DNA from: Defluviitaleaceae bacterium
Lineage (GTDB): Bacteria; Bacillota; Clostridia; Lachnospirales; WQUN01
DNA length: 64,000 nucleotides
Direction: 5' to 3'
NCBI GenBank assembly: GCA_009780315.1
Contig: WRAH01000002.1
Location: 62,001 to 126,000 of the forward strand
Shown: positions 13,357 to 27,826 of the stretch, piece after piece
Layout of the letters: each line of letters opens with the position of its first letter
Position numbering within the stretch: the first letter of the stretch is position 1
The notes under the pieces: model-generated
What the model was told of the DNA's origin: nothing
The model's database searches: none
What the model saw: only the letters and a program-made list of their open reading frames with translations
Position numbers and translations under genes: made by a program

Positions 13357-16300
13357 ATGCGCGAATTATACAATGAAAATTATTATAAAGATTATGGCAC
13401 GATAGGTCTGACTATGGACTATGGTGATACGGCGCATTGGGAATCATTTTTTAAAGGTATAGCGAAAAGAATAGTCGATGATTTTTCACCTAAGACAGTA
13501 CTGGATGTAGGTTGTGCATGGGGTTATCTTGTGACTGCCCTTCGTGATTTAGGTGTAGAAGCTTATGGCTTAGATATATCATCCTATGCAATAAGTAAAG
13601 TGCGAGATGATATAAAACAGTATTGTACCGTTGGTTCAGTGCTTGATGATTTACCAAGTGAGTTTCCCGATTATTATGATGTAGTCGTGACAATAGAAAT
13701 GATTGAACATTTGCATGAAGAAGAATGTATGGCGGCTATTGAAAAGCTTTGTAACTACAGTGATAAGATAATCATGTCGTCATCATCAGATGATATTACA
13801 GAGCCTACGCATTTTAATGTGCAACAACCTGAATATTGGGCAAAACGTTTTGCTCAGTTCGGATACTTTAACAGGGTTGACTATAATACCTCATATATTT
13901 CTAAAGACACTTTTTATTTTGAAAAAAGTAGCGATATTTCTAGAGTGATAGCAACTTATGAGCAAGTCATGCGATTGACTGCTTATAATCATCAAATACA
14001 GGCAAAGGCAAAAGAAAAAACTGCAAACATATACACTTCTACGGTATATAAAGACTATGGCGATGGTTTTATTGATAAAAATGCAACCACTATATCAACT
14101 TCGGGGCAAAGCTTTAATTGTCAAATAGATGTGTGCAACAGCTTAAAAACCATACGATTTGACCCTCTTGAAGGAATGTTGTGTATCGTAGAAAGTCCAA
14201 GTGTTTTATCAAGTGCCGGAAATCTTCCTATAACTAATTTGAATGGCTTTATTGTTGGCCCATATCATCTCTTTCTAACAAAAGACCCTCAATTTAGTAT
14301 AGACATTCCGCAAGGTGTTACTTGGGTTTCTATACAAGCCAATATATATCCCTGTCCTCAGCCAATGTTTGCAGGTTTATTTTCGTACGCCAAAAACCTT
14401 CTCCATGATATTCAAAATTTAAAGGATAAAAGTGAGGCACTTAAAGTTAGTTTTGCTAAGGATATTGAAGCCCTAAAGTTAGAAATATTAGAGAAAACTA
14501 AGTTTTTGAAAGCGCAAGCAGCTGAAATAGAAGTACAAAATACAGAAATAGAAGTAAAAACCACTATGATAGAAAAACTTACAACGGAATCTGAAAACCA
14601 AATGCATCTTCAAAAAGAAGCATTGAATCGATTGCAAAATGAATTAGATAGTGCGAATGCACAAATTGCAAGCCATTTATCTCATATTCATGCAATGCAA
14701 AACTCTACTTTTTGGCGTATAACAAAACCAGCTAGAGTGATTGTTGGTGGTGTAAAATTATTTTTTAGAAAATTTCCGCCAACTCGGCTTTTGTATAAAG
14801 GCTTATGGAGTTTAAGAAGAAATGGTATAAAAGCTACTTGGATTCATGTAAAATATTATAAAAATCGCACCAAACAAGCCCAAGCATTTTTATCTGCTGC
14901 TTTTGATATCAGTGATGAAGTTAAAATATCACAGCGAAATACAGCATTTTTAAAAACAATTAAAATAAGTATAATAACGCCTTTATATAATACACCAGAA
15001 AAATTTTTACGTGAAATGATAAATTCAGTTCAAAATCAGACTTATACTCACTGGGAATTATGCCTAGCTGATGGTAGTGATAAGAACCATAAGTATGTAG
15101 AAAAAATTTGCAAATCATATGCTAAACATGATAGGCGTATTCTTTACAAAAAACTTGAAAGAAATGCAGGTATTTCTGAAAATACTAATCGCGCAATAGA
15201 AATATCAACAGGTGAATATATCGCAATGTTAGACCATGATGATATACTTCATCCCTCTGCCTTATATGAAGTCATGCATGTGATTTGTGAAAAAAATGCA
15301 GATTTGATATATACAGATGAATCTATTTTTACACATGACCCGCGCTCTGGCAGTCCTTATTTTAAGCAAGACTTTGCGCCAGATACGTTAAGGTCACAAA
15401 ATTATATGACACATTTTTGTTGTTATTCCCGCAGTTTACTTGATGAAGTTGGAAACTATAATAGCCACTTTGATGGTAGCCAAGATTATGACATGATATT
15501 AAGACTTACCGAGTCAGCTAAAAATATCATACACATTCCAAAGCTGATGTACTATTGGCGCGCCCATGAGGCGTCGGTTGCAGGCAATATTTCTGCAAAG
15601 AATTATGCTATTTCGGCGGCTAAATCTGCAATAACAGAACATCTTAGACGTATTGGATTATCAGCAGATGTACAGGATTCAGAGATTGAAGGCATGTATA
15701 AGTTAAAATATGACATAGACGGTGAGCCTTTAATATCCATAATCATCCCAAATAAAGACCATGTTGAAACTTTAAAAAAGTGTATAGACTCCATATTCGT
15801 AAAATCAACTTACAAAAATTTTGAAATTATTATTGTTGAAAACAATAGCACATCTACAGAAATATTTGACTATTACAAAACCTTAAATGGTAATAATCAA
15901 ATAAAAGTAGTCACTTTTGAAGGTGGGTTTAACTATCCTGCTATCAATAATTTTGGTGTCAATCAATCTTCCGGAGAATATGTAATACTTCTAAACAATG
16001 ATGTAGAGGTAATAACACCAGACTGGCTGCAAGAAATGCTTATGTTTGCACAACGTACAGATGTTGGGGTAGTTGGTGCAAAATTATACTATCCAGACAA
16101 CACCATTCAACATGCTGGTGTTATTGTTGGCATTGCAGGATTTGCTGGGCATTCTCATAAGCACTTTCCAAGAAGTCATTTTGGGCATATGGGTAGATTA
16201 AAAATTGCACAGAATTTAAGTGCCGTGACAGGCGCATGTATGATGCTTCGCCGTAGTGTATATGATGATGTTGGCGGTTTAGATAGGGATTTTGCAGTAG

Positions 16301-16548
16301 CCTTAAATGATGTTGATTTTTGTATGCGTATTCGTAAAGCGGGGTATCTCATTATCTTTACTCCATTTGCCGAACTATATCATCACGAGTCAAAAAGCCG
16401 TGGATATGAAGATACGCCTGAAAAACAAGCGCGCTTTTCAAGAGAATCAACACTTTTTAAAACCAAATGGCAAGACGAGCTGAAAAAAGGCGACCCATAT
16501 TATAATCCGAACTTGACTTTAGATAGGGAAGATTTTTCATTGCGCTAA
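13357..16548 (+). CDS. Trifunctional methyltransferase / GT2 / GT2 glycan-assembly protein
   Basis: A 1063-residue multidomain protein. Residues about 1-200 are a class I SAM methyltransferase (VLDVGCAWG at 48-56, EMIEHLHEEE acidic motif). Residues about 355-450 form a long heptad-rich coiled coil, followed by a basic segment (NSTFWRITKPAR) common in wall-glycan glycosyltransferases. The first GT2 domain starts near 537 (ISIITPLYNTPEKFL) with DHDD near 626; the second starts near 793 (ISIIIPNKDHVETLKK) with LNNDVE near 880 and VTGACMMLRRSV. It likely adds two sugars and a methyl group to the same chain; similar modular proteins build rhamnan polymers. Methylation could cap or decorate the glycan. 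RBS GAGGAG; 13 bases after rmlD. Confidence 0.88.
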   Translation: MRELYNENYYKDYGTIGLTMDYGDTAHWESFFKGIAKRIVDDFSPKTVLDVGCAWGYLVTALRDLGVEAYGLDISSYAISKVRDDIKQYCTVGSVLDDLPSEFPDYYDVVVTIEMIEHLHEEECMAAIEKLCNYSDKIIMSSSSDDITEPTHFNVQQPEYWAKRFAQFGYFNRVDYNTSYISKDTFYFEKSSDISRVIATYEQVMRLTAYNHQIQAKAKEKTANIYTSTVYKDYGDGFIDKNATTISTSGQSFNCQIDVCNSLKTIRFDPLEGMLCIVESPSVLSSAGNLPITNLNGFIVGPYHLFLTKDPQFSIDIPQGVTWVSIQANIYPCPQPMFAGLFSYAKNLLHDIQNLKDKSEALKVSFAKDIEALKLEILEKTKFLKAQAAEIEVQNTEIEVKTTMIEKLTTESENQMHLQKEALNRLQNELDSANAQIASHLSHIHAMQNSTFWRITKPARVIVGGVKLFFRKFPPTRLLYKGLWSLRRNGIKATWIHVKYYKNRTKQAQAFLSAAFDISDEVKISQRNTAFLKTIKISIITPLYNTPEKFLREMINSVQNQTYTHWELCLADGSDKNHKYVEKICKSYAKHDRRILYKKLERNAGISENTNRAIEISTGEYIAMLDHDDILHPSALYEVMHVICEKNADLIYTDESIFTHDPRSGSPYFKQDFAPDTLRSQNYMTHFCCYSRSLLDEVGNYNSHFDGSQDYDMILRLTESAKNIIHIPKLMYYWRAHEASVAGNISAKNYAISAAKSAITEHLRRIGLSADVQDSEIEGMYKLKYDIDGEPLISIIIPNKDHVETLKKCIDSIFVKSTYKNFEIIIVENNSTSTEIFDYYKTLNGNNQIKVVTFEGGFNYPAINNFGVNQSSGEYVILLNNDVEVITPDWLQEMLMFAQRTDVGVVGAKLYYPDNTIQHAGVIVGIAGFAGHSHKHFPRSHFGHMGRLKIAQNLSAVTGACMMLRRSVYDDVGGLDRDFAVALNDVDFCMRIRKAGYLIIFTPFAELYHHESKSRGYEDTPEKQARFSRESTLFKTKWQDELKKGDPYYNPNLTLDREDFSLR

Positions 16549-16587: not shown

Positions 16588-18522
16588 TTGTTGAAAATTT
16601 TGAATGTACAAATAACAAAATCTTTAGTAGTGTTTACATGTATAAGTGTGCTTATATGTGTAATACTTTTTGTGTTTGCCCGCTCAAGATTTTGGGCATC
16701 CACTGGAGAATATCAACATTGGACTCAAAGTGCGCTGTATCAAAACTTACATGGTTTTTATCTGCTGGATAATCATACAATACAGTCCTATCATGCAGAC
16801 CCTTGGATTATGGTAGGCGTAGACACCCATGTTATTGGAAATAGATTAGCAATTCACATAAGCAATCTTAACGTAGCCAGTACAAGTGCTCAAATTTTCT
16901 TTATGCAAGAAGATGAAGGGTTTAGTGAGTTAAATTCGCGGCGATTTGTACTAACTAATGGAATAAATATTATAGAACTTCCATTGTCACAATACACTGC
17001 ATTTCGTTTAGACCTTACAGAACAGCCTAATATAATGATGACAGTCAATGAAGTTAATTTTTTGAATTATGCTAGAATACCTGTCGCGTCATTGCCATTT
17101 GAGTTTTGGGTTATTTTTATAACTTTATCGTTATTCAGCGTCATTATATTACATCTCATACTATGTAAATATGATGTTTTTGTAAAATGTATTGATTATA
17201 TTTCTGAAAATAAGTATTTATTTATTTATTTATTATTTTGTTTTTTTATGTATTCCCTTTGGGCAATCGTGACACCATTTAATGGTGCGCCAGATGAACA
17301 CATGCGCTGGGATTTAGTACGATACATGATTGAGAATGGGTCATTGCCGCGTGGAGATGACCCTGCAATTAGAGATGCGATATGGGGATTTAATTATTCC
17401 TTTTTTCCATTTACAACGCAAATCATTGGTGCAGTTTTTTATAGAGTATCCTCTGTATTTAGTCCTCATCCCCATGTTTCTTTATATTTAGTAAGACTTC
17501 CAAGCATACTTTCCTCTGTAGGCACAGTTTTTTTTACTTTTAAAATTGGAAAAATCTTATTTACAGAAAAGACAGCATGGTTTTTAATAATTTTAGTGAG
17601 CATGTGGCCTCAATTTGCATTGGTTTCCTCATATATTAACAATGATGCATTTGGAATTTTTACCATATCCATTATATTGTACGCTTGGATTTTAGGGATA
17701 AAAAATAATTGGAATACAAAGTCTTGTATATGGTTGGCTATTGGTGTGGGATTGTGCTTGCTCTCATACTATAATGCTTTTACATTTATTTTACTCAGCG
17801 CGCCATTATGGTTTTGGGTCGTGCTTGCAAATAAAAAAAATCATAAGCACTATAAAGTTTTTGTTAAAAGAATAGTTATCATGCTTTTGATAGTGCTTTC
17901 AATTGCAGGTTGGTTTTATATAAGAAATGCTTATTTATACGATGGTGACTTTTTGGGTATGCGCACACAGTTTATGAATATTGAAGCATATGCAGTGGAT
18001 TGGTTGCGCCCATCAAATAGAGATAACTTTATGAATAGAGGTTTATCAGTTTTTGATATGTTACGGGAAACGCCATGGATTCCTTTTTCATATCTAAGCT
18101 TTATTGCAACATTTGGATATATGAATATTAACCCACATGCCAGTGTTTATGCTTTATACCATGTCATTATAATAACTGGAGTAATAGGTTTAATCGTCTC
18201 TATATTTAAGAACTTACGTAAAAATGTAGATAATAAGTATAAAATATTTTTTATAGCTTCAGCCATTTCAATTCCAATTACCATTGGATTGTCAATACAT
18301 TACTCTTTTTCAGCAGGTTTTCAACCTCAAGGCAGATATCTTCTGCCTATGCTTCTTCCATTATGTATATTGTTAGTATTAGGACTAGATAGTATACGAA
18401 AAATAATACCATCTAAGTATGATTTGTTTACTAATGTTTCTATTCAGTTTATCCAAGGGCTTATTCTGTTAATGAATGTTTTTTCTTGGTTTTCAATATT
18501 TGCATTTTATCACTTACCATAA
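16588..18522 (+). CDS. DUF2142-like polytopic membrane protein (GT-C type)
   Basis: A 644-residue membrane protein with roughly ten or more hydrophobic segments. One N-terminal segment (about 11-30) precedes an extracytoplasmic stretch of about 120 residues. The loop TPFNGAPDEHMRW near residue 230 matches the acidic PDE motif of DUF2142 and related GT-C glycosyltransferases that use polyprenyl-phosphate sugars, and LVSSYINNDAF also fits. Translation must start at TTG 16588 or TTG 16591: a TGA lies just upstream in frame, no Met occurs before about residue 75, and the RBS (GGTGA) is weak. It may be the polytopic transferase partner of the GtrB/GtrA-like pair downstream; that is inference. Confidence 0.72.
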   Translation: MLKILNVQITKSLVVFTCISVLICVILFVFARSRFWASTGEYQHWTQSALYQNLHGFYLLDNHTIQSYHADPWIMVGVDTHVIGNRLAIHISNLNVASTSAQIFFMQEDEGFSELNSRRFVLTNGINIIELPLSQYTAFRLDLTEQPNIMMTVNEVNFLNYARIPVASLPFEFWVIFITLSLFSVIILHLILCKYDVFVKCIDYISENKYLFIYLLFCFFMYSLWAIVTPFNGAPDEHMRWDLVRYMIENGSLPRGDDPAIRDAIWGFNYSFFPFTTQIIGAVFYRVSSVFSPHPHVSLYLVRLPSILSSVGTVFFTFKIGKILFTEKTAWFLIILVSMWPQFALVSSYINNDAFGIFTISIILYAWILGIKNNWNTKSCIWLAIGVGLCLLSYYNAFTFILLSAPLWFWVVLANKKNHKHYKVFVKRIVIMLLIVLSIAGWFYIRNAYLYDGDFLGMRTQFMNIEAYAVDWLRPSNRDNFMNRGLSVFDMLRETPWIPFSYLSFIATFGYMNINPHASVYALYHVIIITGVIGLIVSIFKNLRKNVDNKYKIFFIASAISIPITIGLSIHYSFSAGFQPQGRYLLPMLLPLCILLVLGLDSIRKIIPSKYDLFTNVSIQFIQGLILLMNVFSWFSIFAFYHLP

Positions 18523-18550
18523 TTACGCTTTGAAAAGAGGTGTGTTTTAA

Positions 18551-19648
18551 ATGAAAATTTCACCAAACCGCTTAGACCGTGTATTTATGGCTCATTCAGC
18601 AGAATATGAAGCGGCTGCAATACGCGTGTTACGCTCTGGATGGTATGTTTTGGGCAATGAAGTTTCATCATTTGAAGAAGAATTTGCTCAATATACTGGA
18701 GCATCTTATTGTGTGGGTCTTGCCAATGGGCTAGATGCCATAAAGATTGCGTTTAGTATCTTGGGTATAGGTGAAGGAGATGAGGTTATTGTCCAGTCAA
18801 ATGCTTATATTGCTTGTGTAATGGGAATAACCATGAATGGTGCAACCCCTGTTTTTGTTGAGCCAAATCAATATTACAACCTTGATATAACAAAAATTGA
18901 ATCAGCAATAACACCTAAAACCAAAGCCATATTGCCTGTGCATTTGTATGGGCAAGCTTCTGATATGGAAGGGATTATGACTATTGCTAAAAAGTATAAT
19001 TTATATGTAGTAGAAGATTGCGCACAATCTCATGGTGCAAAGCAAAATGGAAAAATGACTGGGACTTTTGGTGAAGTAGGTTGTTTTTCTTTCTATCCAT
19101 CAAAAAACCTTGGAGCTTTTGGAGATGCCGGTGCAGTGACTGTAAATTCGGCAAAGCTAGATGAAGATTTTAGGGTTTATCGTAATTATGGCAGTGAAAA
19201 GCGATACTATAATAGAATCGTTGGTACAAATTCTAGGCTGGATGAAATGCAAGCAGCATTATTGCGCGTGCGGCTTAATCATCTTGATGAACTGACAAAT
19301 GAAAGAATAAAACTGTGTTCAAATTATTTAGAAAAAATTGAAAATTCTTGCATAGAACTGCCCCAGGTGCAAAGGAGTTGTGAAACAGTATGGCATCAAT
19401 TTGTAATAAGAGTGAATAATCGAGATGCATTTATTGATTATCTTAGTGGCAAGGGAATAGGCTCAATTATTCATTATCCAATTCCTCCACACCTATCAGA
19501 GGCATATGGGTATCTTGGATATACAAAAGGAGCATTTCCTATTGCAGAAAAATATGCGGATACAGTTTTATCTTTACCCTTGTACAATGGCATGACCCAA
19601 GAAGAGCAAGACTATGTAATTGAAATTATCAATAAATATGAGGTGTGA
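18551..19648 (+). CDS. DegT/DnrJ/EryC1 sugar aminotransferase (FdtB/QdtB-like)
   Basis: A 365-residue PLP-dependent aminotransferase that would install an amino group on a dTDP-keto-deoxyhexose. The PLP lysine is Lys185 in FYPSKNLGAFGDAGAV; VVEDCAQSHGA carries the Asp that contacts the pyridine nitrogen; NSRLDEMQAA is typical of the family. Together with the ketoisomerase-like cupin encoded two genes on, this points to C3 amination of dTDP-3-keto-6-deoxyhexose (Fuc3N or Qui3N). RBS AGAGGTGT. Confidence 0.88.
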   Translation: MKISPNRLDRVFMAHSAEYEAAAIRVLRSGWYVLGNEVSSFEEEFAQYTGASYCVGLANGLDAIKIAFSILGIGEGDEVIVQSNAYIACVMGITMNGATPVFVEPNQYYNLDITKIESAITPKTKAILPVHLYGQASDMEGIMTIAKKYNLYVVEDCAQSHGAKQNGKMTGTFGEVGCFSFYPSKNLGAFGDAGAVTVNSAKLDEDFRVYRNYGSEKRYYNRIVGTNSRLDEMQAALLRVRLNHLDELTNERIKLCSNYLEKIENSCIELPQVQRSCETVWHQFVIRVNNRDAFIDYLSGKGIGSIIHYPIPPHLSEAYGYLGYTKGAFPIAEKYADTVLSLPLYNGMTQEEQDYVIEIINKYEV

Positions 19649-19652
19649 CATT

Positions 19653-20222
19653 ATGAAACATAAAATTAAAGCTAGTTATAAAAACGTATTGCTTCGGGCT
19701 TTGACAGTGGAGGATTTGGAGCTAATGCGTATATGGCGAAACGAGACACAAGTAGACTTTTTAAGGAAAATTGACACCATAACACCAGAAATGCAACAAG
19801 AGTGGTTTAAACGTGACAATGAAAATATTGAATGTTGTACATTTGGTATTGAAGAGGTAGATGAATTAAATCGGCTTGTTGGTAGTGTCGCCTTATACAA
19901 CTTTAAAGATAAGACGGCTGAATGCGGGCGGATTTTGATTGGAGATACTGCCGCACATGGAAGAGGAATTGGTTATCTTGCTATTTTATTGTCTTTGTAT
20001 ATAGCTTTTGAAAACTTAGGTTTTGAAAGAGTGATTGCAGATGTACATGAAGAAAACTATGCAGCGGTAAAAAATAATATGAAAGCTGGTTTTGTTGTGT
20101 GTGGAAATCATATGGATGAAAATGGGCTTAAAGTATTAGAAATTGCAGTTGAAAGAGCGGATTTTTATTTAAAACATGATTTCTTATCAGAGGTTGTTAT
20201 CTCTGGAGGCGAAGTCAAGTGA
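19653..20222 (+). CDS. GNAT N-acetyltransferase, probable amino-sugar acetylase
   Basis: A 189-residue RimJ/RimL-type GNAT. It starts at ATG 19653 behind GAGGTG; an upstream in-frame start inside the aminotransferase gene was rejected. The N-terminal LRALTVEDLELMRIWRN and the acetyl-CoA loop AHGRGIGY are visible, followed by EENYAAVKNNMKAGF. Lying between an aminotransferase and a ketoisomerase, it probably N-acetylates the dTDP-amino sugar with acetyl-CoA. In described FdtC/QdtC pathways this step uses a hexapeptide-repeat acyltransferase, so a GNAT here would be a replacement. Its TGA overlaps the next start (GTGA). Confidence 0.8.
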   Translation: MKHKIKASYKNVLLRALTVEDLELMRIWRNETQVDFLRKIDTITPEMQQEWFKRDNENIECCTFGIEEVDELNRLVGSVALYNFKDKTAECGRILIGDTAAHGRGIGYLAILLSLYIAFENLGFERVIADVHEENYAAVKNNMKAGFVVCGNHMDENGLKVLEIAVERADFYLKHDFLSEVVISGGEVK

Positions 20223-20635
20223 ATACAATTGATGATGTAAAGATAGTCTCCTTTCCAGAACTTGGAGATGAAAGAGGTCGTTTGGTTGTAATAGAGGGTG
20301 GTAAACAAATACCCTTTGATGTAAAGCGTGTTTTTTATATTTATGGTTCTGATTCAGATGTAGTTAGAGGACAACATGCCAACCGCGACTCAGAATTTTG
20401 TCTCATCAATGTGTGTGGGCAAAGTAAGGTTAAAGTGATAGACCAACAAGCAAATGAAAAAGTATTTGTGTTAGATAAGCCCCATATGGGTGTATATTTA
20501 CCACCTATGATTTGGAAAAATATGTATGATTTTTCGGTCGATTCTATTTTATTAGTCCTTTCAAGTCATTATTATGACAAAGCCGAATATATAAGCGATT
20601 TTAATGAATATTTAAAAGGGGCAGCCCATGAGTAA
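20219..20635 (+). CDS. FdtA/QdtA-like sugar 3,4-ketoisomerase (cupin)
   Basis: A 138-residue WxcM/FdtA-type cupin expected to move the keto group of dTDP-4-keto-6-deoxy-glucose from C4 to C3 so the aminotransferase can act. FPELGDERGRLVVIEGG, PFDVKRVFYIYG, RGQHANRDSEFCLI and LPPMIWKNMYDFS are family landmarks. The characterised enzymes have His-x-His in the RGxHAH motif; here the second His is Asn (RGQHAN), which could alter the stereochemical outcome. GTG start overlapping the upstream stop, RBS GGAGG inside the GNAT gene. It overlaps the next gene by 8 bases. Confidence 0.85.
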   Translation: MNTIDDVKIVSFPELGDERGRLVVIEGGKQIPFDVKRVFYIYGSDSDVVRGQHANRDSEFCLINVCGQSKVKVIDQQANEKVFVLDKPHMGVYLPPMIWKNMYDFSVDSILLVLSSHYYDKAEYISDFNEYLKGAAHE

Positions 20636-21545
20636 GCTTTCTATTATAATACCTGTTTATTTTAGTGCCGACACTTTGATGGACTGTTATTTAGACCTTA
20701 AAGAAAATGTGCTGGGAAAAATTGAAGATTATGAGTTGATTTTGGTTGATGATGGCTCGGGTGATAACTCCTATGAAGTATGTCTTGAAATTGCATCATG
20801 TGATGACAAAGTGCGCTTGATTAAACTTTCCCGCAATTTTGGTTCTCATGCTGCATGTTTTGCCGGAATGGTTGCTTGCACAGGTGACTGCTGCACAATA
20901 AAAGCTGCTGACCTTCAAGAACCTTCAACCCTTATTCTAGACATGTATGAGCGTTGGAAAAAAGGCAATCGTGTTGTGCTGGCAGTGAGAGAGGACAGGG
21001 AGGATAGCTTATCTCAAAAAATGTTTGCAAATATGTATTATGGGCTGGTTAAAAAATTTGTGAGTACAAAAATGCCTGCTTCAGGTTTTGATTGTTATCT
21101 TTTAGACAGAAAAGCCATTGAAGCATTAAAACTTTTAGACGAGAGAAATTCTGCAATTACATTACAAATCTTATGGTCTGGATTTAAGACAGATACAGTG
21201 TCATACACGCGCCTAGCGCGTCAAAAGGGTACTTCAAGATGGACATTGGGCAAAAAAATTAAACTGGTGATTGACTCCTTTGTTAGTTTCTCACCTGCAC
21301 CCATTCGATTTATAGAGTGGGTGGGGGCTATTTTTGCCATTGGCGCAGGTGTCTGGGGTACTGTACTGATTATTTTAGGATTTTTAGGCGTTATTGATGT
21401 GCAAGGTTGGGTAACACTTATGGTTGTTATTTTATTTTCATCTGGTTTAATATTACTTGTGCTTGGCATTTTAGGGGAATATATTTGGCGTATTTTAGAT
21501 GTAGCACAAAATAGACCGGTTTATTTTATTGAGGAAGAAAAATAG
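20628..21545 (+). CDS. GtrB/DPM-like family 2 glycosyltransferase
   Basis: A 305-residue GT2 with a cytoplasmic catalytic domain (IIIPVYFSADTL, ILVDDGSGDNSYEVC, KLSRNFGSHAACFAGM, KAADLQEPS) and two C-terminal membrane helices (about residues 230-290). This layout is that of polyprenyl-phosphate glycosyltransferases such as GtrB, ArnC and YkcC, which load a sugar on undecaprenyl phosphate for later transfer outside the membrane. The next gene encodes the GtrA family protein thought to flip such products. The sugar is unknown; the acetamido sugar made by the preceding genes is an attractive candidate. Confidence 0.87.
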   Translation: MSKLSIIIPVYFSADTLMDCYLDLKENVLGKIEDYELILVDDGSGDNSYEVCLEIASCDDKVRLIKLSRNFGSHAACFAGMVACTGDCCTIKAADLQEPSTLILDMYERWKKGNRVVLAVREDREDSLSQKMFANMYYGLVKKFVSTKMPASGFDCYLLDRKAIEALKLLDERNSAITLQILWSGFKTDTVSYTRLARQKGTSRWTLGKKIKLVIDSFVSFSPAPIRFIEWVGAIFAIGAGVWGTVLIILGFLGVIDVQGWVTLMVVILFSSGLILLVLGILGEYIWRILDVAQNRPVYFIEEEK

Positions 21546-21548
21546 TTT

Positions 21549-21950
21549 ATGATTGCGTTTATAAAAAAAAATTTTTTAAACAAACAATTTATTTTGTTTG
21601 TCATCATTGGCGGTATAAATACGTTTAATGGAAGCGTATTGGCTTTTGGTTTTTCTTTGCTAGTACAGGCTAATTTAGCATTTGCTCTGGGGTATATTAC
21701 TGCACTTATTATTGCGTACTTATTAAATTCATTTTTTGTGTTTAAGTCAAAACTTAACATGGTTAAGCTGGTGAAATTTGCATTGTCCTATGTACCCAAC
21801 TTTATTATTCAGAATATCATGGTGTTTATTGTATATAATATTTTAGGATTGTATGCGCTGATTGCTTATATACTGGCAGCAATATCTGGAATACCGCTTA
21901 CTTTTTTAATATTAAAATGGTTTACATTCAAAAACAAGAACATAGTTTAA
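21549..21950 (+). CDS. GtrA family membrane protein (putative polyprenyl-P-sugar flippase)
   Basis: A 133-residue protein with four hydrophobic helices. The N-terminal QFILFVIIGGINTFNG and the segment LNSFFVFKSK are typical of GtrA proteins, proposed to flip undecaprenyl-phosphate-linked sugars. It follows the GtrB-like gene by three bases and is probably cotranslated with it. RBS GAGGAAG inside the upstream gene's end. Confidence 0.9.
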   Translation: MIAFIKKNFLNKQFILFVIIGGINTFNGSVLAFGFSLLVQANLAFALGYITALIIAYLLNSFFVFKSKLNMVKLVKFALSYVPNFIIQNIMVFIVYNILGLYALIAYILAAISGIPLTFLILKWFTFKNKNIV

Positions 21951-24354: not shown

Positions 24355-24783
24355 ATGTTGCTTTACCTTGATAACTGTAGCTTTAACCGCCCTTTTGATG
24401 ATCAAACACAACTAAAAATAAGCCTTGAGTCACAGGCTAAGTTGTTTATACAGTATGAAATACAAAACGGGCGTTTTGGGCTTTTATGGTCGTATGTATT
24501 AGAATATGAAAATAATAAAAACCCTTTTGAGTTGCGCCGGGATAGTGTTATCAGCTGGAAAGAAGTTGCTATCAAACATATAGAAGAATCAGAAGGAATT
24601 ATTGCTTTTGGTCAATCACTTATGAAGCGGGGAGTAAGGCTATATGATGCCTTACATGTTGCTTGTGCGTACTTTGGAGGCTGTGATTGTTTTATTACAG
24701 TAGATAAGGGGCTTTTAAATAAGTCTATCAATGAAATTATAATAAAAAATCCTATAGATTTTATTAGAGAACTGGAGGGTTAA
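24355..24783 (+). CDS. PIN-domain protein, probable VapC-like toxin
   Basis: A 142-residue PIN-fold protein, the fold of RNA-cleaving VapC toxins. Conserved acidic residues are visible: Asp6 in LYLDNC, a central Glu (LEYENN), YDALHVACA with Asp near residue 98, and FITVDKGLL with Asp near 121. It starts with ATG 24355 behind AAGAGG, after its own promoter and an inverted repeat. The next gene begins two bases after its stop. Toxin-first order is the reverse of classical vapBC. It is probably an independent module inserted among the glycan genes; activity is inferred from the fold. Confidence 0.8.
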   Translation: MLLYLDNCSFNRPFDDQTQLKISLESQAKLFIQYEIQNGRFGLLWSYVLEYENNKNPFELRRDSVISWKEVAIKHIEESEGIIAFGQSLMKRGVRLYDALHVACAYFGGCDCFITVDKGLLNKSINEIIIKNPIDFIRELEG

Positions 24784-25088: not shown

Positions 25089-25295
25089 ATGTATTTAGAC
25101 CCAGGCTTTGGCGGTATGTTACTCCAAATAGTCGTTGTGATTATAGCAATGGGAGGTGCGATATTATTTTCTTTGCGCAAGAAGATTCGTAATTTGTTTA
25201 CAAAAAAAGAGGATATAAATTCTACTATTGCACCAACCCACAGCACATCTGTCAGTGAAGAAGATGTAATAGATGTATTGGATGAAGACAGTTAA
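25089..25295 (+). CDS. Small single-pass membrane protein upstream of the YidC fusion
   Basis: A 68-residue protein: MYLDPGFGGMLLQ start, one transmembrane helix (about residues 10-28), a basic stretch (LRKKIRNLFTKK) and an acidic tail. Proteins beginning MY(L/I)DPGxGxML recur in polysaccharide loci of Bacillota, from memory, with no assigned function. Its TAA overlaps the next ATG by one base (TAATG), so it is translated together with the YidC-glycerophosphotransferase protein and is likely its partner. RBS AAAGGAACG. Confidence 0.75.
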   Translation: MYLDPGFGGMLLQIVVVIIAMGGAILFSLRKKIRNLFTKKEDINSTIAPTHSTSVSEEDVIDVLDEDS

Positions 25296-27187
25296 TGAAT
25301 ATAGTCCTTGATGTTTTAGCAACGCCACTAGGGTGGGTATTGTATTTTATGTTTTTGCTGACAAATAGTTTTGGTATGTCGATTATATTTTTTGCGATTA
25401 TTACTAAATTGATACTTTTTCCACTGACACGTTTTGCACATTTAAATTCTATACGACTGTTAAAATTACAACCTGCCTTGTCTGCTATACAAAAGCGTTA
25501 TGCACATGACAAGGAACGGCTTAATGAAGAGCGATATGGGTTGTTTACAAAAGAAAAGTATAGTCCATTAGTAGGTATTGTTCCTTTATTGGTGCAGTTG
25601 GTTTTACTTATGGGTATGTTGCAAGTTATGTACGACCCACTTTATCATATGGGCTTTCCAGAGGGTATAGACTTGTACTTTTTAGGTGTAGATTTGAGGG
25701 AAGGCTCTTTTATTATGCCCTTCTTTTCGGGTGTAGCGGCGTTGATATTTGCTTTAACACAAAACTTCATAAGTCCCGGTGCATTAAGTCAAGGTAAAAA
25801 AATGAATGTTGGTTTAATTATTTTTACTGTAGGATTAAGCATTTATTTTGCCGCAGTAACCCCGGCAGGCGTAGGACTATATTGGACAGTTGGCAATCTT
25901 TTTGCGGTTGTTATTGTGGTTGTGTTGTATCTTTTTTACAATCCATATACGTTGGCATCAGAAGCACTTGCACTGCAAAATGCAGAGCGTAAAACACCAG
26001 CAGAGATACAAGTAGCGTACAAAAAAGATAAAGAAAATAAAGCACGAGAAAAAGCTGATGCAACAAGGTTTTTATCTGCAAAAAAACAGCTTGTTTTCTA
26101 TGCAATTTCAGGCGGTCAATATAAGTATTACAAAAATATCATTGATTATCTGTTAACCCATAGCGATATGGTGATTCATTATTTAACAAGTGATTCGGAT
26201 GATAGTGTTTTCCACAAAAATCACCCGAAACTTTTGCCATACTATGCTGGGCAGGGAAAAGTCATATCACTCATGTTAAAATTGGATGCAGATATGTTCG
26301 TGACCACTGTGCCAGATTTGCAAACATTTCATGTGAAGCGTTCCATAGTACGTGATAATATTGAATATATCCATACTTTCCATGGGCTTACTAGCACCCA
26401 TCTTGTGTATAAAGAGAAGGCTTTTGATTATTTCGACACAATTTTATGTGTGGGCCCTCATCAAGTTGCAGAATTGCGGCACCGTGAAGCAATGGAGGGT
26501 TTGCCTAAAAAAAATCTTGTAAAAGCAGGATATGGTTTGTATGATGACCTTCTTGAATCCTATGCCGAACTTGTAAAGCAAGCCCGTAAAAGTGAAAAAC
26601 CAAGAATTTTGATAGCACCGTCTTGGCAAGCTGATAATCTTTTGGATATGTGTATAGACCCCATGTTGGAATCATTGATTGGAAATGGGTATGAGATTAT
26701 TGTGCGTCCTCATCCCCAGCATATACGTTTATTTCCTCATTTCATCAATAGCTTGGTTGAACGGTATATGCGCTATTCTGAAACAGGTGAAATTATTTTT
26801 GAGTTGGATTTTGCAGGCAATGAGTCGATTTTTACGTCAGATGTGTTGATAACAGACTGGTCTGGAATTGCTTATGAGTTTTCATACTGTACTTTGAAAC
26901 CTTGTATTTTCATCAACACCCCGATTAAAGCAATGAATCCAAATTACCAACGATATGGTATAGAGCCTTTGGATATTATATTACGAGATAAAATAGGCAC
27001 TTCCATCAATGTAGAAAATGTGGACAAACTTAATGTTGCGGTTTCTCAATTATTGAAAGATAAAGATGCTTATAAAAATCAGATTGAAGACATTGTGAAG
27101 CAATATCTTTATTATCCCAAACGTAATGGACAAGCCGCAGGAACGTATATCATGAAAAAACTAGGTATATTGCCGCATAAAGAATAG
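25295..27187 (+). CDS. YidC/Oxa1 insertase domain fused to CDP-glycerol glycerophosphotransferase
   Basis: A 630-residue two-domain protein. Residues 1 to about 222 look like a YidC/Oxa1 insertase: a segment ending AIITKLILFPL, a cytoplasmic hairpin with LQPALSAIQKRY, then further membrane helices with FFSGVAALIFALTQNF and PAGVGLYWTVGN. The groove position usually filled by Arg in Gram-positive YidC is Lys38. After a charged linker (about 223-262), residues 265-630 resemble TagB/TagF: TFHGLTSTHLVYK, VRPHPQH and DVLITDWSGIAYEF match the catalytic His regions and the ITD(Y/W)S motif. The fusion would anchor a glycerol- or polyol-phosphate transferase to a YidC-like core. In the usual enzymes these are separate proteins. 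Confidence 0.85.
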   Translation: MNIVLDVLATPLGWVLYFMFLLTNSFGMSIIFFAIITKLILFPLTRFAHLNSIRLLKLQPALSAIQKRYAHDKERLNEERYGLFTKEKYSPLVGIVPLLVQLVLLMGMLQVMYDPLYHMGFPEGIDLYFLGVDLREGSFIMPFFSGVAALIFALTQNFISPGALSQGKKMNVGLIIFTVGLSIYFAAVTPAGVGLYWTVGNLFAVVIVVVLYLFYNPYTLASEALALQNAERKTPAEIQVAYKKDKENKAREKADATRFLSAKKQLVFYAISGGQYKYYKNIIDYLLTHSDMVIHYLTSDSDDSVFHKNHPKLLPYYAGQGKVISLMLKLDADMFVTTVPDLQTFHVKRSIVRDNIEYIHTFHGLTSTHLVYKEKAFDYFDTILCVGPHQVAELRHREAMEGLPKKNLVKAGYGLYDDLLESYAELVKQARKSEKPRILIAPSWQADNLLDMCIDPMLESLIGNGYEIIVRPHPQHIRLFPHFINSLVERYMRYSETGEIIFELDFAGNESIFTSDVLITDWSGIAYEFSYCTLKPCIFINTPIKAMNPNYQRYGIEPLDIILRDKIGTSINVENVDKLNVAVSQLLKDKDAYKNQIEDIVKQYLYYPKRNGQAAGTYIMKKLGILPHKE

Positions 27188-27199
27188 GAGACATTTTAA

Positions 27200-27826
27200 A
27201 TGAAAACAGATGTGCAGTATTGGGATGGGTATTATAATAATGACAGAAAAGATATTAGTCAGCCTTCAGATTTTGCAAAGTTTGCAATGGGACAAATGCA
27301 ATCTGATAAAAAGCTGATTGATTTGGGCTGTGGTAATGGACGAGATAGTATGTATTTTTGTCAAAACGGAATCATGGTGACAGCGGTAGATTCATCAAAA
27401 AGTGCAATTGAATCTATTGATAGGCATGGTATGGATATATTTGCAGTGTGCAATGATTTTGTAATCACAAAAGCGTTAAAATGTATTGATTATGATTACT
27501 GTTATGCCAGATGGTCTATTCATGCAATCAATCAAGTACAGCAAGATACACTTATTCCAAACATACATCATGCACTAAAAAAAGCAGGGCTTCTTTTTAT
27601 AGAAGTCCGCACAGTGAGCGATGTCAAATATGGTCAAGGTGAGTGTATTGGAAAACATGAGTATTTTTGTGATAATCATTATCGAAGATTTATAGAGCCT
27701 GACAGTTTGCTTAATCAACTAAAAGATAATGGGTTTGAAATCATTAGTAGTGAAGAATCTGATGGATTTTCTGTAGTAGGGGACGACTCGCCTACGCTAC
27801 TTAGATTAGTTGCCAAGAAGGTTTAA
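27200..27826 (+). CDS. Class I SAM-dependent methyltransferase
   Basis: A 208-residue cytoplasmic methyltransferase: SAM-binding loop LIDLGCGNGRDSMYF (about 46-60), acidic residue AVDSSKSA, and YARWSIHAI after strand 4. The overall look is TehB/methyltransferase-12-like. It begins 12 bases after the fusion gene behind TAGGAGA, so it probably belongs to the glycan operon as its last gene. The acceptor is unknown; a sugar or phospho-polyol hydroxyl would fit. Confidence 0.82.
   Translation: MKTDVQYWDGYYNNDRKDISQPSDFAKFAMGQMQSDKKLIDLGCGNGRDSMYFCQNGIMVTAVDSSKSAIESIDRHGMDIFAVCNDFVITKALKCIDYDYCYARWSIHAINQVQQDTLIPNIHHALKKAGLLFIEVRTVSDVKYGQGECIGKHEYFCDNHYRRFIEPDSLLNQLKDNGFEIISSEESDGFSVVGDDSPTLLRLVAKKV

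Follow-up and report, generated by a model that had tools for sequence, protein, structure and literature searches.

EptA, PptA and LtaS transfer head groups on the outside of the cell, taking them from phospholipids, and TagF-type enzymes are membrane-associated on the cytosolic side. Lipid scrambling by Oxa1/YidC members has been seen in vitro, and we know of no use that bacteria make of it. The transfer of activated phosphonates onto bacterial surfaces has been called enigmatic (PMC6697681). No ChoP donor pathway has been identified for PptA-type transferases, and coexistence of Lic-1 and PptA within a single species is stated to lack evidence (PMC10434233).

We analysed 64,000 nucleotides of DNA from a Defluviitaleaceae bacterium (hereafter the window) containing a gene in which domains related to YidC and to TagF are joined, accompanied by a small membrane peptide and a membrane enzyme that probably belongs to the AlkP superfamily. 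The features of the locus are listed in Table 1.

Table 1. Features of the fusion locus in the window and of the putative donor operon elsewhere in the same genome
Feature	Position	Strand	Basis
Polyprenyl-P sugar transferase (GtrB-like) and flippase (GtrA-like), immediately upstream of the module	20628..21950	+	PF00535, PF04138
Membrane enzyme, probably AlkP superfamily (sulfatase/EptA/LtaS-like), 766 aa	21968..24268	+	Foldseek, motif columns, PF00884 relatives
YxDP peptide 'MYLDPGFGGMLLQ', 68 aa, one TM, N-terminus outside by the positive-inside rule	25089..25295	+	sequence, family invariants, co-occurrence
YidC/Oxa1 half of the fusion, residues 1-214	25295..25936	+	PF02096, AlphaFold, Foldseek, charge distribution
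Charged helical linker, K/R rich, residues 215-262, predicted cytosolic	25937..26080	+	model, charges
PF04464-like GT-B transferase half, residues 263-630	26081..27187	+	Pfam, invariant motifs, Foldseek TagF
SAM methyltransferase, 12 bases 3′ of the fusion	27200..27826	+	PF13489
LicD, PEP mutase-cytidylyltransferase, phosphonopyruvate decarboxylase and NTP-transferase-Fe-ADH, one operon	L091:9037-13967 (own genome, contig C3)		

Two domains in one chain

The fusion occupied a single open frame of 630 aa, stop-free throughout, at 25295-27187 on the forward strand. A preliminary description of the locus had read it as a YidC/Oxa1 domain joined to a CDP-glycerol glycerophosphotransferase, and the profile check that it proposed for each half supported both domain assignments. 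In the Pfam profile search, residues 26-210 matched PF02096 (60KD_IMP) with 103.9 bits (cut-off 35, E 1e-29) and residues 263-607 matched PF04464 (Glyphos_transf) with 40.8 bits (cut-off 22.1, E 2e-10). These were the sole Pfam matches of the fusion, the LicD profile PF04991 giving none, and TIGR03592 (YidC C-terminal domain) also scored above its own cut-off. The cytoplasmic hairpin LQPALSAIQKRY and the TagB/TagF-like motifs TFHGLTSTH, VRPHPQH and LITDWSG were found at the positions first claimed for them, and H363, R471-P472-H473 and D521-W522-S523 were invariant among 25 aligned fusions.

The YidC half consisted of an amphipathic helix (residues 2-23), TM1 (26-48, including Lys38), the hairpin (49-90), TM2 (91-113), TM3 (140-159), TM4 (168-188) and TM5 (191-214), with a C-terminus that was predicted to be cytosolic. 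Charge distribution placed both the hairpin and the linker in the cytosol, and thus on the same side as the CDP- and CMP-donors. The linker was the least conserved part, with a mean identity over 300 pairs of 34%, compared with 41% in the YidC half and 47% in the PF04464 half.

An alignment of 25 homologues served as AlphaFold input, and the resulting model (pLDDT 87.8, pTM 0.73) combined a YidC fold with a TagF-like GT-B fold. Foldseek matched the N-terminal half to 3wo6 and 3wo7, with a TM-score of 0.77 on the target, an rmsd of 3.5 and 27% identity for the B. halodurans YidC 3wo6. The N-terminal helices therefore take the YidC fold in the full-chain model, a point on which the preliminary description had made its reading depend. 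Since the profile of the PF04464 half had no sequence match among PDB chains, a fold search was used for it, in which TagF with soaked-in CDP-glycerol (3l7k) ranked first and capsule polymerases of the TagF-like type also matched. By sequence and predicted fold, not demonstrably by function, the fusion belongs to the YidC fold family. It is also a diverged member of PF04464.

The same genome encodes a housekeeping YidC of 401 aa on contig C12, in the order rnpA-yidC-jag-mnmE-mnmG, and the fusion is not at that locus. A separate housekeeping YidC was present in 18 of 18 fusion genomes checked, and in the maximum-likelihood tree the fusion YidCs formed one branch apart from the housekeeping YidCs (support 100/100). 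The fusion has neither the export signal nor the lipobox found at the N-terminus of Gram-positive YidC proteins, its frame starting at amphipathic helix EH1. Trp197 and Tyr196 were retained in the fusions. Eight residues, several of them polar, were nearly invariant in fusions and not fixed in housekeeping YidC (N51, S52, Y89, Q156, N157, S182, Y184 and N201).

In the alignment with B. halodurans YidC2, Lys38 takes the place of the groove Arg. The replacement had been noted earlier, but it has no weight as an argument. The TM1 groove position was positive in all 24 readable fusions (K in 18, R in 6), and K was also found there in 3 of 24 housekeeping YidCs. As both residues occur in fusions and housekeeping proteins sometimes have K, Lys38 alone is uninformative, and the Arg-to-Lys change was rejected as a sign of lost insertase function.

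Distribution and conserved neighbours

Within the family, 7 of 38 genomes carried the fusion. A profile built from the C-terminal half recovered it from 25 of 392 Lachnospirales genomes, each time as a single ORF of about 570-740 aa, and two further fusions came from G1000 and G1089, which belong to other families of the class. Full-length homologues were 36-61% identical. The alignment of 25 fusions comprised 24 of the 25 order genomes and the MAG locus L008; it omitted G021, whose copy has an in-frame stop close to the C-terminus. Both Pfam families were matched by every one of the 25 aligned proteins. A DNA-pattern search of contigs had returned two close relatives only, and the wider relatives were recovered by profile search of whole genomes. 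No description of a YidC/PF04464 fusion, a YidC/sulfatase fusion or the YLDPG motif was found in open-licence papers. The architecture is real and recurrent, and apparently undescribed.

The stop codon of the YxDP gene overlaps the fusion start as TAATG. Invariant positions of the YxDP ('Y[IL]DP') family were Y2, D4, P5, Q13 and G23. In a profile search of the 392 genomes, the peptide was detected in 23 of the 25 genomes that carry the fusion, against 1 of the 367 others (Fisher 8e-34); in the two fusion genomes lacking it, the fusion lay on short contigs. No signal peptide was found on YxDP proteins of the window's clade, and most YIDP homologues carry their own. A protein beginning 'SSFRDPSGF' adjoined YxDP in G213, the single non-fusion genome with the peptide, and in a second G002 locus. 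The inner enzyme may thus vary, with the 'SSFRDPSGF' protein as a possible substitute for it in the same machine. We observed YxDP without the fusion, next to a protein with this start, at L145:9348-10955 and L146:5772-9093, the latter with an AlkP-like neighbour.

The 766-aa partner had about six TMs followed by a catalytic domain with D425, Thr466, H658 and D697-H698. The window protein itself fell below the Pfam threshold and had no Pfam match; most counterparts at the same position matched PF00884, and the D, T, H and DH motif columns were kept. Its model was weak (mean pLDDT 63, N-terminal 200 residues unreliable), so the fold matches serve superfamily placement only: Foldseek gave PbgA (6xlp), EptA (5fgn) and MCR-1 (9nww) as top matches with modest TM-scores, and LtaS was also among the nearest folds.

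The trio of AlkP-like protein, YxDP and fusion was shared by the termite-gut MAG loci L007 and L008. Recurring neighbours in 20 further loci were the YxDP peptide, a sulfatase/AlkP-superfamily membrane protein and CTP-activation genes. Twelve loci extended 4 kb to either side of the fusion; YxDP was found in all 12 and AlkP in 11, with the YIDP-sulfatase fusion of L067 added by eye; the automated neighbour count skips genes that overlap the fusion by a few bases, namely this one and the choline kinase-cytidylyltransferase of L021.

Other genes of the window were treated as surroundings. The SAM methyltransferase is possibly co-transcribed with the fusion. The GtrB-like and GtrA-like genes are context and are not conserved with the module; together with a PMT_2-like GT-C gene (16588-21950) they make up a separate polyprenyl-sugar three-component system beside it. 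In the same glycan locus, a methyltransferase domain and, after it, two GT2 domains are joined in a protein of 1063 aa (13357-16548). Between the AlkP-like and YxDP genes lies a PIN-like ORF below the Pfam cut-off (24355-24783), possibly a toxin-antitoxin remnant or an insertion.

Phosphonate genes were close to the fusion in G019, G002, G007, G114, G389, G241, G232 and G1000. The set contains a PEP mutase with fused cytidylyltransferase, phosphonopyruvate decarboxylase, and an AEP transaminase or NTP-transferase-Fe-alcohol-dehydrogenase fusion. Choline kinase and cytidylyltransferase adjoined the fusion in G037, G100, G059 and G173, some with a BCCT/MFS transporter, and NTP-transferase-aminotransferase fusions were near it in G339 and G080. 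Within the sequence available, no CTP gene was seen at the G295, G271 and G286 loci. A gene for CDP-glycerol synthesis (glycerol-P cytidylyltransferase) was not recognised beside fusions in an unsystematic look at the neighbourhoods. Two loci had further genes by the fusion. In one, a cytidylyltransferase joined to a Radical SAM domain is directly upstream, between fusion and PEP mutase (L022:12797-14224), and in the other three tandem HEPN/MNT-like gene pairs, recognised by eye, lie between YxDP and fusion (L021:11951-14252).

Within the window there was no CTP enzyme near the fusion, and the donor operon sits on another contig with its own LicD. The closest relative of the window protein, in L007 (60% identical), has the phosphonate set directly downstream. 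An orthologous PEP mutase/Ppd/NTP-ADH/LicD operon is present in the window's own genome and is likely a CMP-hydroxyethylphosphonate pathway. From these two sets, in which gene content is observed and the product predicted, the donor of the window protein is most likely a CMP-phosphonate of the hydroxyethylphosphonate type. Several ORFs of one shared type come after the operon.

A second architecture deals the same domains differently. In two genomes a third YidC was located on 900-aa ORFs, fused to an AlkP/sulfatase enzyme and adjoining a PF04464 protein that starts with a YIDP TM peptide. In the order sample the two proteins occurred in the same 8 of 392 genomes, always together. The pair was adjacent in at least 13 loci (L120-L127 and, in a different family of the class, L150-L155), and in L153-type loci the AlkP part runs past the sequence end. 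The YidC domain of this class formed a separate branch (100/100) and had lost the groove charge (N in 8, Q in 2). In G085 the YIDP peptide was fused straight to a sulfatase. The co-occurrence of the four domains in different covalent pairings is strong evidence that they constitute one physical machine. YidC-AlkP was seen next to the YIDP-TM-PF04464 protein at L120:7578-11622 and L121:7-3956, for example, and AEP/phosphonate genes were present in some such loci; in several genomes YidC-AlkP copies were paired side by side.

Proposed machine and alternative readings

We consider the general function of the module likely, and are fairly confident that it is a transferase module for CDP- or CMP-activated head groups. 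Our full stepwise account, a four-part membrane machine with the fusion as its subunit on the cytosolic side, stands at about even chances. CTP-dependent enzymes would produce the CDP- or CMP-activated head group, which the PF04464 half would move, in the cytosol, onto a membrane acceptor, probably a lipid. The YidC half would keep the enzyme at the membrane and the lipid-linked head group may cross via its polar groove, the weakest step of the account. On the outside the AlkP partner, aided by YxDP, would pass the head group to a glycan or protein, as its fold and motifs suggest. The result would be small phospho- or phosphono-groups (phosphonates, phosphocholine) displayed on the cell surface. 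Against this account stand the lack of a CTP enzyme near the fusion in the window, whose donor operon lies elsewhere in the genome and has a LicD of its own, and the loci G295, G271 and G286, where the available sequence showed no CTP gene.

Seemingly the same group is handled by one enzyme inside and another outside, and the simplest link between the two would be a lipid-linked intermediate able to cross the membrane. Such an intermediate, with transfer outside by the AlkP enzyme, is in our view an evenly balanced proposition. That the YidC half is itself the flippase is put forward tentatively. Flipping by this half is chemically plausible by analogy, since E. coli YidC scrambles phospholipids in vitro, as Oxa1-family members do in simulations (PMC10491306). 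Against it, the fusions retain the positive groove residue (K/R), like insertases. Nor would flipping by YidC be obligatory, since the PF04464 relative of G762 is a standalone protein that sits beside phosphonate genes and an AlkP enzyme in a genome whose only YidC is the housekeeping one. A shade more tentative is the broadest form of the proposal. Here the YidC fold would be a dedicated flippase for a lipid-linked phospho- or phosphono-head group, joined in some cases to the inner and in others to the outer enzyme, and would link CTP activation to AlkP transfer, uniting the Lic/Pnt and PptA/EptA routes.

The PF04464 half could also act on a lipid-linked glycan that is flipped by another transporter. 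It is possible, if rather doubtful, that the YidC half is an anchor only: it would tether a cytosolic transferase, an undecaprenyl-linked glycan would be modified inside and flipped by a Wzx or ABC exporter, and the AlkP enzyme would be separate. The standalone relative of G762 in a like gene set, the ABC exporter and rhamnose genes upstream within the window, and the cytosolic membrane association of TagF-type enzymes all agree with this. However, the same type of YidC domain is elsewhere joined to the extracytosolic AlkP enzyme, where it anchors no cytosolic enzyme. Moreover, the YidC half is nearly as conserved as the catalytic half and has invariant polar residues of its own, which goes beyond the needs of a mere anchor.

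We think it improbable that the YidC half is a dedicated insertase for YxDP, the AlkP partner or both, coupling assembly of the machine to the enzyme. YxDP in the window's clade, being short, N-out, single-TM and without a signal peptide, is a typical YidC substrate, its start/stop overlap with the fusion suggests coupled translation, and the groove K/R is kept in every readable fusion. Yet the groove charge is gone in the YidC-AlkP class, most YIDP homologues come with a signal peptide of their own, and every genome checked has a housekeeping YidC.

A classical teichoic acid enzyme, that is a CDP-glycerol or CDP-ribitol polymerase or primase with a YidC anchor, is very improbable. The name of the PF04464 family and the nearest solved fold, TagF with CDP-glycerol, point to it, but the CTP enzymes nearby are of phosphonate, choline and amino-alcohol type, and the same genome has another PF04464 protein that is strongly TagF-like (268 bits, compared with 37-41 for the fusion). 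We rejected the pure CDP-glycerol/teichoic reading as the main explanation because of the neighbouring genes. The preliminary description had suggested that the YidC fold was recruited as a membrane platform for a teichoic-acid-like decoration rather than for protein insertion. Its platform part is supported by the separate housekeeping YidC, the fusions' own branch in the tree and a YidC domain re-dealt between cytosolic and extracytosolic transferases. The teichoic-acid-like part is not supported, as the donor genes are not obviously those of polyol phosphates. The neighbourhood survey that it recommended in other Clostridia gave recurring YxDP, AlkP and CTP genes.

For the remaining reading, two genes joined by a frameshift or misassembly, no support was found; many of the genomes are incomplete and split over many contigs. 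With homologous full-length genes in 25 of the 392 Lachnospirales genomes and a further two elsewhere in the class, as diverged as reported above, we ruled it out as having a negligible chance.

Comparison with known systems

The proposed head-group transfer by CDP/CMP activation has its closest relatives in LicD (PF04991), which belongs to the phosphocholine pathway Lic-1, and in the phosphonate-tailoring Pnt pathway (PntC, PMC6697681). These share the upstream suppliers, either choline kinase and cytidylyltransferase or PEP mutase, Ppd and cytidylyltransferase, and their final step is the transfer of a head group to the surface, as proposed for the module. Unlike LicD, the transferase of the module is a TagF-like GT-B protein of PF04464; it shares its chain with YidC and has an AlkP-type enzyme and YxDP as partners. 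With TagF, TagB and the TagF-like capsule polymerases the fusion shares the fold and the His, RPHP and DxS motifs. It differs in its low score (41 bits), a diverged motif after the His, other donor genes and the YidC domain in front.

The likeness to YidC, SpoIIIJ and Oxa1 lies in the fold, five TMs, the cytosolic hairpin, the positive groove residue and the Trp197/Tyr196 motif. In contrast to these, the fusion lacks the N-terminal signal or lipobox and the basic tail, lies at another locus, forms its own clade and carries a C-terminal enzyme, and the YidC-AlkP variant is without the groove charge. Three-component Gtr systems (GtrB synthase, GtrA flippase and GT-C transferase) follow a logic like the one proposed, in which a lipid-linked group is made inside, flipped and transferred outside. 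The head group of the module would instead be phospho or phosphono, and its proposed flippase has a YidC fold.

The module is a concrete and testable candidate, in gut Clostridia, for the surface transfer of phosphonates and for a ChoP donor route to PptA-type transferases. If the proposal is true, the Oxa1/YidC superfamily gains a natural role besides protein insertion. Database names such as 'YidC insertase' or 'CDP-glycerol transferase' are likely for such proteins, and both may mislead.

At the outer end the module would resemble PptA, EptA, MCR-1 and LtaS: its membrane partner, probably of AlkP fold, keeps Asp, Thr and Asp-His motifs, and EptA, MCR-1 and LtaS are among its nearest PDB folds. 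Whereas those enzymes draw on ordinary phospholipids, the module has a dedicated CDP/CMP-dependent enzyme alongside. In the proposed account it would act as LicD, or the missing Pnt transferase, does at the cytosolic end and as PptA/EptA do at the outer end, but it is a member of neither group.
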